The notes under the pieces are model-generated. The model was not told where the DNA came from. It saw nothing but the letters and a program-made list of their open reading frames with translations, and made no database searches. From the NCBI GenBank assembly GCA_028279655.1, contig JANQNH010000021.1:18938-82937 (forward strand): a DNA stretch of 64,000 nt, given 5' to 3'. The stretch is from Candidatus Nanoarchaeia archaeon. Its GTDB lineage: Archaea; Nanobdellota; Nanobdellia; Woesearchaeales; JACPBV01. The number at the start of each line of letters is the position of its first letter. Within the stretch, counting starts at the first letter, position 1. Both the position numbers and the translations under genes were made by a program. Shown here piece after piece: positions 36,656 through 41,682 of this stretch.

Positions 36656-37225
36656 TTATGATATCTTATCTGTTTTTAGATCTTCCCCCATCAATCTTGC
36701 CCGCTTCATCTCTCTTCTTTTTTTCTCCAAGAACCTGTAAACTCCTGAATGGGGGGATCCTTTCAGTAATTTCTCAACAGCTTCTCTCGCTACTGATGAT
36801 GATTCTGGCAACCCTATGATGCCAATTGTCTTTCCATATACGCAGATGTGGGCTTCAGTCAATTCTTCTATCAATCTTCTTGATTTTCCTTCTGCCCCAA
36901 TTACTCTTCCTTTAATCCTTAATAATGTATCTTTTGATTTGCCTGCCCATTCCTTTAGGTCTATCAACTCGAAACAGTAATCTGATTTGAGCAATAGTTT
37001 TGCTATATCTGGATTGAATCCTCTGCCTACGGCCCGGATAACTTCCCTACATGAGTATAATCCCAGGGCATCCTCACCAGAAATAAAAACATCTCCTTCT
37101 TTGCTGTCTACTTTTATCTTTGTTTTTGTCTCAAGTTCTATTTCTTTCTTTATCTTCCCTTCTTTTCCTATAAAGACAGCAATCCTATCCTTAGGTATCC
37201 TTAGTTCGTATAGATATTCAGTCAT
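36656..37225 (-). CDS. KH-domain protein, Dim2/Pno1-like
   Basis: Two KH-like domains (IAVFIGKEGKIKKEIE; GRVIGAEGKSRRLIEELT). Confidence 0.88.
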   Translation of the reverse strand: MTEYLYELRIPKDRIAVFIGKEGKIKKEIELETKTKIKVDSKEGDVFISGEDALGLYSCREVIRAVGRGFNPDIAKLLLKSDYCFELIDLKEWAGKSKDTLLRIKGRVIGAEGKSRRLIEELTEAHICVYGKTIGIIGLPESSSVAREAVEKLLKGSPHSGVYRFLEKKRREMKRARLMGEDLKTDKIS

Positions 37226-37253
37226 TTTGGAGGCGATTGTTTTCTTTTATTTC

Positions 37254-37964
37254 TTAAGATTCTTGTATCTTTTTTAAAACTTTTGTTTCGTCTGGTTTCA
37301 TACCTGTTTTTTTGAAGAATGTTGATATGTTTTTAATATCTCTTTTTAGATATTCTAGGGATCTTGAGGTTTTTATTGGGGTTGCTTGTGAGAAATCTAT
37401 AAAGACCGGCTGTTGGCTGCTGTTTAAGATGTTAAATGGAGAAAGATCTGCATGGACAAGGCCTGCCTTGTATAATCTTTTTATGTTGTTGATTATTTTA
37501 TTGAAGAACTGTTTTGGATCCTTTGGCTTGTCTACAGCCAACCTATGTGCTATGAGGTCTTTGCTTCCTATAAACTCCAGCACCAAGATGTTGTTCTTGA
37601 ATGTGATTGGGGTTGGAACATTAACCTCTGCTTCCCTTGCTTTTATCAGATTTCGATATTCTCTCTGTACCCAGAAGAAGATTATCTTTCTTTTTTTTCC
37701 TTTAATATCTGCATATCTTGGATCTTCCTTGATGTAATCGTACATCTTGTTAAAGTCGCATGATTCCAGCCTGTAAATCTTGACCATGACCCTGCTTTTG
37801 TCCTTTGTCTTTGCTGAGAAGATGTTTGCCTCTTTTCCAATGCTTATGGGTGATTCAAGGCCTTCAAAATATCCCTCTGATATTAGTTTGAATAGAGTCC
37901 TATTTGTGAATTCGTCAAATACATTGTGCATGGTCTTGAATTTTTCTTTAGACTTGTTTGGCAT
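37254..37964 (-). CDS. rio1: RIO1-type serine kinase
   Basis: ISIGKEANIF, LVHADLSPFNIL, PVFIDFSQA. Confidence 0.93.
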   Translation of the reverse strand: MPNKSKEKFKTMHNVFDEFTNRTLFKLISEGYFEGLESPISIGKEANIFSAKTKDKSRVMVKIYRLESCDFNKMYDYIKEDPRYADIKGKKRKIIFFWVQREYRNLIKAREAEVNVPTPITFKNNILVLEFIGSKDLIAHRLAVDKPKDPKQFFNKIINNIKRLYKAGLVHADLSPFNILNSSQQPVFIDFSQATPIKTSRSLEYLKRDIKNISTFFKKTGMKPDETKVLKKIQES

Positions 37965-39233: not shown

Positions 39234-39719
39234 TTATTTTTGTTCTCTAAGAAGTAATTCATAAGAGGCTATAATGCTAAGATATTTTTCTGGGATTCTT
39301 GCCAAACCTATAACCTCTATCGGTAGTTTAGTTGGTTCTTGATCTGCTTTATAAGCACTTATCTCTGAGGGGGTTATAATAATAAAATAGTTCAGACCTA
39401 AATCACCATATTCAAGCAAGCATTCACAATCTGATTTAATATCGTAATCTGTGCGTGGTATGAAGCAGGTAGGTAGTATTTCTATAGATGGATAGGTTTC
39501 TTTTAGTTTTAGGGATCCTTCAATTGTTTCCCTAGTTCTGGCAGCGGCACGTGGTCTATCGCCTTCTATCTTTCCAAGAATAGTAGATTGAATACAACAT
39601 ATACCACATTCCAATGTATCTGCCAAAGTAATCCCAATTTTAGGGGTGTCTTCCTCCCTCCATTTATTTGTGAAATGTTCTTCAATGTTTTTAGGTAGAA
39701 TTAATAGATCTGAGCCCAT
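39234..39719 (-). CDS. Hypothetical protein
   Basis: 161-aa ORF. Confidence 0.4.
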   Translation of the reverse strand: MGSDLLILPKNIEEHFTNKWREEDTPKIGITLADTLECGICCIQSTILGKIEGDRPRAAARTRETIEGSLKLKETYPSIEILPTCFIPRTDYDIKSDCECLLEYGDLGLNYFIIITPSEISAYKADQEPTKLPIEVIGLARIPEKYLSIIASYELLLREQK

Positions 39720-39796
39720 TATTCCTTTGAAAAACTTATGGGTGTTTATTAATCTTTTGTTGTATACTACTTTAAAATGGTTACAAAATAGAAAGG

Positions 39797-39804
39797 TTTA
39801 TATA
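39797..39804 (+). promoter_or_regulatory. Candidate archaeal TATA box for the dnaG-upstream structured RNA
   Basis: TTTATATA in a noncoding AT-rich context, ~30 nt upstream of the structured sequence. Confidence 0.4.
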
Positions 39805-39831
39805 GTAGTTCTACTATTGAATAGTAACAGT

Positions 39832-40029
39832 GAGAGGGGTGGTAGAATCCTCTTAAATTTACTATTAAATGCCAATATTACAACTAATATTGTCTAAACA
39901 CCTCTTTTCCCTTGCAAACGCTCCAAAAGAGCGCTTGCTTGGGTTTTAAACATCAAAAAGAGATCATAATCACCTCTTTTTCCCTAGCAAGGGTCTCGCA
40001 AGAGATTCTTGTTAGGGTTTTATGATTAT
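39832..40029 (+). ncRNA. Tandem hairpin RNA element (two modules each beginning CACCTCTTTT) with complementary GAGAGGGGTG upstream
   Basis: Hairpins 39909-39943 and 39982-40017, both followed by TTTT; GAGAGGGGTG (39832-39841) can pair all 10 nt with either CACCTCTTTT copy, allowing G-U. Confidence 0.5.
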
Positions 40030-40090
40030 ACCTACACATTTAAATAGTAGTTAATCATTACGATTAATATAGCTTTAATCAAGCTATGTG

Positions 40091-40167
40091 AGCCCGTCAC
40101 GAGAGTACTCAATGGAGCTTACGCTAAATGCAAGCAATGAGCTTGGGAGTTAGTGTTACGGGCTACA
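40091..40167 (+). ncRNA. Candidate H/ACA guide RNA
   Basis: AGCCCGT/ACGGGCT basal stem immediately followed by ACA; ACTC/GAGT upper stem; 14 nt from upper stem to ACA. Confidence 0.55.
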
Positions 40168-40205
40168 ATTATATTTACAGGCTTAATACGGTTAGAAAAG
40201 TAAAA

Positions 40206-40388
40206 ATAGAGCAAGTTTGTGCTTAATATTCATTTATTTCCGTTATTTCACTTAAAGAAGGAAAGAAAGAGCTTAATTTAGGCTAGACTTGTTCTATAAT
40301 TTAGAAGATTATACAGAAGGAGAAGATCAAAATCATTATCATCACTTCAATCAATGGTAGAAGTTTGATAGTAGGTAACTCCTTCTGT
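40206..40388 (+). ncRNA. Additional structured RNA/leader upstream of dnaG
   Basis: ATAGAGCAAGTTT/AGACTTGTTCTAT 13-bp pairing (40206-40218/40285-40297); ACAGAAGGAG/CTCCTTCTGT 10-bp pairing (40313-40322/40379-40388) with inner ACTTC/GAAGT. Confidence 0.4.
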
Positions 40389-40419
40389 AGATAGTAATTA
40401 AAGTTATGGAGTGATAAAA

Positions 40420-41682
40420 ATGGGAAAGATAAGTCCAGTTTCATCAAAGTATATTGTAAATTCATCTATAGAGATAGATGGGATTGTTGACAGACCGGAT
40501 GTTATAGGTGCAATTTTTGGCCAAACAGAGGGTCTGTTGGGAGCAGATCTGGAGCTTAGAGAGCTTCAAAGATCCGGAAGGATCGGAAGGATAGAGGTTA
40601 ATGTAGATACAAGAAGCGGAAAGACTAGCGGAACAATAACCATACCCTCTAGCCTGGACAAAGCAGAAACTTCAATAGTTGCTGCAGCTTTGGAGATCAT
40701 CCAAAGAATAGGCCCTTGTAATGCTAAGATAAAGGTCCAGAATATCGAAGATGTCAGAGTAACAAAGAGAAGCTTTGTGATAGAGAGAGCAAAGGAATTG
40801 CTTAAGACTATGATGGAAGGAGTTATTCCAGATTCACAGGAGCTAGCAGATGAGGTTGCATATTCTGTAAGGGTTATGGAAGTTCAGGAATATGGAAATG
40901 ATAGGTTATCTGCAGGTCCGGCAATAGATGAAAGTGATGAGATTATCGTAGTAGAGGGAAGAGCAGATGTTCTAAACCTGTTGAAACATGGTTTTAAGAA
41001 TGTCATATCCCTTAATGGCACTTCTGTCCCAGATACAATTATAGAATTAAGCAAGAAGAAAGTAATAACCGCTTTTGTCGATGGTGACAGAGGAGGGAGA
41101 TTAATAATAAAAGAGCTTACAAACAGAGCTGAGATCGACTATGTGGCTATGGCCCCAGATGGTAAAGAGGTAGAAGAGATAACTAAGAAAGAGATCCATA
41201 AGTCCTTGAGAGGCAGGGTTTCTGTAGAACAGGTGAAGTTAGAGCTCGGCAAGGAAGTGGAGAGGATAGATAAGCCACAGATGTATGAATCAAGAAGGCA
41301 GCCTCAACAGGGTTACAACAGACCTCAGAGATCATTCACACCAAGGTCTTCTGCTCCTCCAAGCAGGGCCTCCTCAAAGAAGAACGCTACTACAGAAGAG
41401 AAGAAGGTCTTCAAAGAGATGCTTGAGAATCTTGTCGGAACAAGGGGGGCACATATACTGGATGATAAGCTGAATATACTTGGAAAGGTGCCTATCTCTG
41501 AGCTTCAGACTACTATCAAGAGTTTGTCTTCAGGCGTATATGCTATTGTGTTTGATGGCAGTATTGACAAGGACCTCGTTAAGACAGCAGAAAGGGCTAA
41601 TATTACATTCCTTATTGGGATGGACCTTAAGATCAAAGCAGACGAAACCAATATTCGGATGCTGACTGTTAATGAATTGTAA
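40420..41682 (+). CDS. dnaG: Archaeal DnaG-like primase/exosome-associated protein
   Basis: Toprim [30 protein letters not shown] at 40420 preceded by GGAGTGAT. Confidence 0.93.

Follow-up and report, generated by a model that had tools for sequence, protein, structure and literature searches.

The intergenic DNA 5' of dnaG in this Woesearchaeota genome (G000) holds a gene with its own TATA box, R1, and we put at about 0.6 the probability that it encodes a trans-acting anti-SD sRNA that masks SDs and has the 3'UTR of one conserved mRNA, that of gene X, as its two-point partner and likeliest sponge. In the proposed mechanism, two strands that imitate the anti-SD (AUCACCUC-UUUUU) would each be kept open ahead of a stable hairpin. 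The CACCUCUUUUU strands would pair with the SD sequences (AAAAGAGGUG) of leadered mRNAs, and this pairing would keep the 30S subunit off the mRNA. In Woesearchaeales, a G-rich element of R1 (the G-element) would kiss the C-rich hairpin loop (C-loop) of the gene X 3'UTR, and an R1 module would pair with GGGAAAAAGAGGUGA just 3' of the C-loop hairpin; titration of the sRNA by gene X mRNA would be the likeliest outcome. Two separate complementarities to one conserved mRNA 3' end suggest an RNA–RNA control circuit. The RNA family, its structure and its anti-SD identity, as well as the two complementarities with their conservation and co-variation, are read directly from the genomes. By the same comparison, the R1 modules represent a predicted, previously undescribed small RNA that is present in most sampled genomes of a whole class of tiny archaea.

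R1 is housed in a 700-nt intergenic stretch of the window (the whole 64,000-nt stretch of DNA that was analysed), with dnaG downstream at 40420-41682 and a gene divergent from R1 at 39234-39719. Its promoter, recognized from sequence at 39766-39804 on the plus strand, consists of an upstream element (ACTACTTTAAAATGGTT, 39766-39782), GAAAGG and the TATA box TTTATATA (39797-39804). The GAAAGG-TTTATATA core spans 39791-39804 on the same strand, and the promoter consensus over 52 relatives reads CTTAAAA..AAAA-CGAAA-TTTATATA. The usual archaeal spacing between TATA box and start places the R1 start near 39825-39829; the transcript probably begins there, about 30 nt past the TATA box at 39797, in which case the minimum-energy fold may include, in AATAGTA...TACTATT, a hairpin from outside the RNA. 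R1 is predicted to be an independently transcribed RNA of ~190-200 nt. The R1-type upstream promoter element recurs at other promoters of the same genome: a near-palindromic ACTACTTTAAAATAGTA-like element stands ~30 nt 5' of GAAA-TATA promoters at several genes (39766-39782 is one example), and it also precedes a TrmB-like regulator in one relative. The idea that ACTACTTTAAAATAGTA is an sRNA-specific operator was weakened, because other GAAA-TATA promoters of the genome score comparably.

The predicted 5' part of the RNA (39828-39849, plus strand, as are all R1 features) contains a GGGGUGG element, the G-element, near the predicted 5' end; GGGGTGGTAGAA (39836-39847) is fully complementary to the C-rich loop of the gene X 3'UTR. 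A linker hairpin, CAATATT/AATATTG, appears in the minimum-energy fold at 39873-39892 and is also found in the sister genome, G003. Two modules come next; each opens with the invariant, single-stranded (A/U)CACCUCUUUUUCC, continues with a covarying hairpin and closes with GGGUUUU. The original prediction had described two consecutive modules of CACCTCTTTT, hairpin and GGGTTTT, and the sequence bears this out: the CACCTCTTTT copies begin at 39899 and 39971, spaced by 72 nt, within a 17-nt repeat that is 88% identical. Module 1 (39899-39947) comprises the single strand CACCTCTTTT (39899-39908), which is the anti-SD seed, and the hairpin CCCTTGC...GGG with TTTT (39909-39947), the hairpin proper, CCCTTGCAA...GGG, occupying 39909-39943; a covariance model that has this sequence within its training set matches 39894-39948 with 57.5 bits (E 5e-14). 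Module 2 (39971-40021) has the seed strand CACCTCTTTTT (39971-39981) followed by the hairpin CCCTAGCAAGGGTCTC-GCAA-GAGATTCTTGTTAGGG with a GNRA loop and TTTT (39982-40021). Its hairpin proper, CCCTAGCAA...GGG, ends at 40017 and its stem covaries; the model match (39966-40022, 63.5 bits) again concerns a sequence from the training set.

The region 39820-40030 folds at -72 kcal/mol versus -40 kcal/mol in shuffles (z = -7.75), with none of 200 shuffles reaching the same value. Among 118 distinct modules, stem pairs 4-10 are paired in register in 83% of cases compared with 40-54% when the strands are slid by 1-3 positions; CACCUC is near-invariant in this set, and the inner stem pairs vary with compensation. 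In a 36-sequence module alignment CACCTCTTT is invariant and unpaired ahead of the hairpin. The module consensus is (UCUAAA or AUAAU)CACCUC-U(3-6)-CC(C), a 12-16 bp stem and GGG(G)UUUU, with loops that are mostly UUCG, GCAA or GAAA. With modules conserved across genera and a stem paired in register, the R1 element is beyond chance; the earlier claim of a duplicated RNA element is upheld. That the element belongs to no recognized family also stands: Rfam 15 at gathering threshold gave no match for R1 and only a tRNA in the window, and a permissive scan of 39700-40450 returned chance-level matches only. Neither scoring above threshold for a box C/D or H/ACA guide RNA in Rfam, R1 has modules that end in GGGUUUU and stems that are largely uninterrupted, which counts against both guide classes.

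A DNA search of the family's four other genera located the R1 element in each of them, there too 5' of dnaG. With DnaG as bait, 80 named loci were recovered, nearly all from Woesearchaeota/Nanoarchaeota assemblies, and about 25 of these carry one to three modules upstream of dnaG, so that the further module copies proposed as a check do exist; stand-alone one-module genes are found elsewhere too (for example, at G000:C35:61325). The covariance search, likewise proposed, detected the module in 128/145 genomes of the order and, at E <= 1e-4, in 204/279 genomes of the phylum, about 63 of these 204 belonging to other orders and generally having one match per genome. A lack of conservation between relatives had been set beforehand as grounds for refutation, and on this count the claim survives. 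Minimal members outside the order show a TATA box, ~27-30 nt and then AUUAUCACCUCUUUUUCCCC-hairpin-GGGUUUA, with AUUAUCACCUC about 30 nt past the TATA box. There the RNA would apparently be minimal, ~55 nt long, starting near AUCACCUC and with the seed at its 5' end; R1 enlarges this plan by a second module and a G-element in its 5' part. The sister genome has a second R1 copy (G003:C45) beside an integrase-like gene, which hints at mobility.

The seed copies the end of 16S rRNA. The 16S 3' ends of three family genomes read GGATCACCTCCTTTTTTT, CACCTC forms the core of the 16S 3' tail GGATCACCTCC, and the sRNA strand AUCACCUC-UUUUU is identical to this anti-SD tail over AUCACCUC and then has one C fewer. 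R1 therefore possesses the conserved single strand complementary to SDs that defines anti-SD (C-rich motif) sRNAs. GAGGTG-type SDs precede 40 of 959 genes (-20..-3) versus 2-3 in control intervals, with GGAGGTG in 5, and AAAAGAGGTG-N(2-14)-ATG occurs 18 times in the genome versus 2 for the reversed pattern. These excesses indicate that the sRNA strand is able to mask SDs. We infer from sequence that R1 is expressed, pairs in vivo and blocks translation by actual SD masking, as we do, tentatively, the direction of control between R1 and gene X. The AAAAGAGGTG sites may serve the ribosome as good SDs and nothing more, and a dedicated regulon of AAAAGAGGTG mRNAs did not emerge, these sites being indistinguishable from ordinary strong SDs. 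Outside Woesearchaeales a search for a dedicated long target usually gave none, the exact 15-nt complement usually being the sRNA gene itself. In one genome of another order, a tiny basic protein (MAARRKAKKSSSRKKRRR; G181:C1:117830) has the exact 15-nt seed complement as its SD. The 16S rRNA gene of the present genome (G000:C6:9611-10878) was recorded as two partial matches, to model positions 4-828 and 890-1286.

Gene X was found through one short extra match of R1. It encodes an uncharacterized 136-aa protein with the invariant motif SYNKRQFYDRI, which has no relative in Pfam, NCBIfam or the solved structures of the PDB and is possibly a transcription regulator. Within the order, 104/118 genomes have the gene, whereas none of 23 genomes sampled from other orders, all of which retain the sRNA, does; gene X is thus not the original reason for the seed. 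Its 3'UTR forms a hairpin, GGCUCCC...GGGAGCC, whose ~25-30 nt loop bears (A)CCACCCCC and whose stem covaries, 5/8 pairs being changed on both sides. A model of this C-loop hairpin finds matches in 61/135 of the order's genomes, usually 1-50 nt past the gene X stop. A GG(G)AAAAAGAGG site lies downstream of the hairpin at 11/17 gene X loci that have it, compared with 2/32 loci that do not (Fisher p 2e-5, with the hairpin at two of the 17 loci, L278 and L294, assigned by eye). Among gene X homologues, the 3' C-loop hairpin and a GGGG leader are mutually exclusive: a run of GGGG or more, 5-15 nt 5' of the start codon, is seen in 18/32 homologues without the hairpin versus 0/17 with it (p 4e-5; loci G000:C33:9044, L281-L298 and L352-L369). 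The leader of the second gene X copy in this genome (G000:C33) pairs with the C-loop too, at -14.9 kcal/mol.

Complementarity in trans was searched over 1.24 Mb of the 2.07-Mb genome, and statements on unique sites refer to that part. Within it, the longest trans match joins TCACCTCTTTTTCCC in module 2 to GGGAAAAAGAGGTGA in the gene X 3'UTR, the two being complementary at all 15 nt; this 3'UTR also bears GGGAAAAAGAGGUGA, an exact complement of module 2. For the G-element, the only 12-nt trans complement in the same 1.24 Mb is TTCTACCACCCC, again in the gene X 3'UTR, and the two complementary sites (15 nt and 12 nt) lie 48 nt apart behind the gene. In the five family genomes, no place other than such RNAs and the gene X 3'UTR has the exact 15-mer. 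A second RNA with sites complementary to the seeds, as expected for a sponge of the RoxS/RosA-like class, is accordingly found in the C-loop together with GGGAAAAAGAGGTGA.

Runs of GGGG or longer occur in 17/32 R1 5' regions of relatives versus 2.4 expected from shuffles. Duplexes between the G-element and the C-loop of the same genome are better than swapped ones (summed over 16 genomes, p 0.007, or 0.017 when the sister genome is left out). Perfect 12-bp pairings are made from different sequences in G000 (GGGGUGGUAGAA/UUCUACCACCCC), G057 (CAAUGUUGGGGG/CCCCCAACAUUG) and G135 (GGUUUGGGGGGU/ACCCCCCAAACC), and G010 has a 9-bp pairing (GGGGGUAGU/ACUACCCCC). In 11/16 genomes another partner scores above the own C-loop, and the contact is thus not equally specific everywhere. 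Because changes in the G-element follow the C-loop while CACCUC is invariant, the conserved partners of the G-element appear to lie in trans, and by this comparison its best-supported predicted partner is the C-rich hairpin loop of the gene X 3'UTR, not CACCUC within R1. The original prediction had the G-rich strand alternating between the two CACCUC copies with no other RNA involved. Its complementarity is real: GAGAGGGGTG (39832-39841) is complementary to CACCTCTTTT over all 10 nt, three pairs being G-U, and this duplex, at -11.9 kcal/mol, compares with -6.8 to -8.6 kcal/mol for the local hairpin with CCUCUU. The frequency of G-runs among relatives also suits such an internal switch. However, the G-element is found in single-module members too and is missing from about half of all R1 members, and its flanks, which differ between lineages (CAAUGUUGGGGG, GGUUUGGGGGGU, GGGGUGGUAGAA), fit the C-loop found in the same genome rather than CACCUC. 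The alternation between GAGAGGGGTG and both CACCTCTTTT copies is consequently not supported as proposed, and we regard it as quite improbable.

The most serious competitor keeps both RNAs and changes their roles: R1 would do the regulating, mainly of gene X mRNA, with binding in the 3'UTR stabilizing or destabilizing that mRNA and no titration involved. Both complementarities fit such a scheme equally, and archaeal sRNAs that act on transcription-factor mRNAs (sRNA162, PMC3510493) as well as 3'UTR binding in Sulfolobus (PMC5867862) have been reported. Nevertheless, the seed is conserved in orders without gene X, which makes a sponge likelier than a plain target, and the C-loop/GGAAAAAGAGG element sometimes occurs without gene X (G054:C27), as better fits a mobile sponge than a gene-specific target site. 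We judge gene X as main target unlikely, at clearly lower odds than the sponge.

Improbable, too, is a role for the modules as CsrB/CsrA-like decoys of a protein that binds the 16S 3' end (Pno1/Dim2, Nob1) or oligo-U (SmAP). The letter-by-letter copy of the 16S tail over AUCACCUC, the one to three modules per RNA and the nearby genes for a Pno1/KRR1-type KH protein and a RIO kinase (36656-37964) would all agree with it, but the exact 15-nt complement and the co-varying partnership of G-element and C-loop would be left unexplained. Moreover, the U-tract and CC that flank the seed are as conserved as CACCUC, yet they diverge from the 16S tail, where one more C is present. Least probable are ordinary tandem transcription terminators with no regulatory role. 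Both copies do have a GC-rich stem followed by U4, and it speaks against the anti-SD sRNA reading that the module hairpins with U4 would serve as terminators as well. A terminator has no need, however, for the invariant UCACCUCUUUUUCC ahead of the stem, and the exact 15-mer is confined to such RNAs and gene X 3'UTRs. Given this invariant 15-nt strand and a motif restricted to the sRNAs and their partner site, an assignment of R1 as an intrinsic terminator only was rejected.

To our knowledge, regulatory RNAs of uncultured DPANN archaea are essentially unknown, and a literature search for them found nothing on point. In the sources searched, neither the RNA family nor its spread through the class nor its partner in a 3'UTR is described; the kind of mechanism is known from bacteria. 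A variable number of near-identical hairpin modules, as in the R1 family, is typical of the protein-sequestering RNAs CsrB and RsmY, which carry GGA hairpins that bind CsrA, whereas R1 gave no sign of a protein partner. RoxS/FsrA with the sponge RosA in Bacillus subtilis and RsaE/RsaI in Staphylococcus use C-rich SD-masking strands, as proposed for R1; what neutralizes these sRNAs is an RNA that offers them G-rich complements in more than one stretch (PMC8216469). R1 differs in being archaeal and apparently unrelated in sequence, and in having a seed, CACCUCUUUUU, that copies the 16S tail; in most cases an mRNA 3'UTR is its partner, and complementarity runs crosswise, with a C-rich and a G-rich arm on both RNAs. 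Listeria LhrC resembles R1 in its repeated CU-rich sites: several redundant ones (CUCCC...UUUU) per sRNA, with multiple genomic copies and SD masking (PMC4132741). Those sites lie in the loops and linker of one RNA, whereas every site in R1 is a strand placed 5' of a hairpin of its own. The nearest archaeal functional likeness is with sRNA162, sRNA154 and sRNA41 of Methanosarcina mazei, intergenic sRNAs with an anti-RBS strand, among them sRNA162, which works through two domains and acts on the mRNA of a transcription factor (PMC3510493, PMC5867862). The descriptions consulted mention neither module repeats nor a copy of the 16S tail. Nothing in Rfam links R1 by descent to RoxS/RsaE, LhrC or sRNA162/154/41, and we do not assign it to any of them.

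R1 and gene X would thus be an archaeal counterpart, built from different sequence, of the bacterial pairs of C-rich sRNA and sponge. An RNA present in 204/279 genomes, with an anti-SD copy and an mRNA partner, offers concrete sites for tests of translational control in gene-poor episymbionts. Somewhat short of even odds, in our estimate, is the wider proposal that a class-wide DPANN sRNA (of the Nanoarchaeota class with Woesearchaeales, in the GTDB sense) acts by general imitation of the anti-SD tail and is controlled in Woesearchaeales by a two-point sponge that the 3'UTR of a conserved gene carries; this gene may encode a transcription regulator. The proposal, if true, would provide the first archaeal RNA sponge circuit and, for these organisms, the first family of regulatory RNAs.

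Two further elements lie between R1 and dnaG. R2 (40038-40177) is a second unrecognized RNA that is conserved more than R1, its ACGAGAGTA core being present in about 60 of the 80 dnaG loci. A 20-sequence alignment shows invariant CACGAGAGUAC, CAAGC, AUGA and GUUAGUG, and a closing stem, GCCCGU/ACGGGC, is followed by N-ACA; R2 is possibly an H/ACA-type guide RNA. Directly 5' of dnaG, a long hairpin (ACAGAAGGAG...CTCCTTCTGT) occupies 40313-40388, and a similar one is found in the sister genome.
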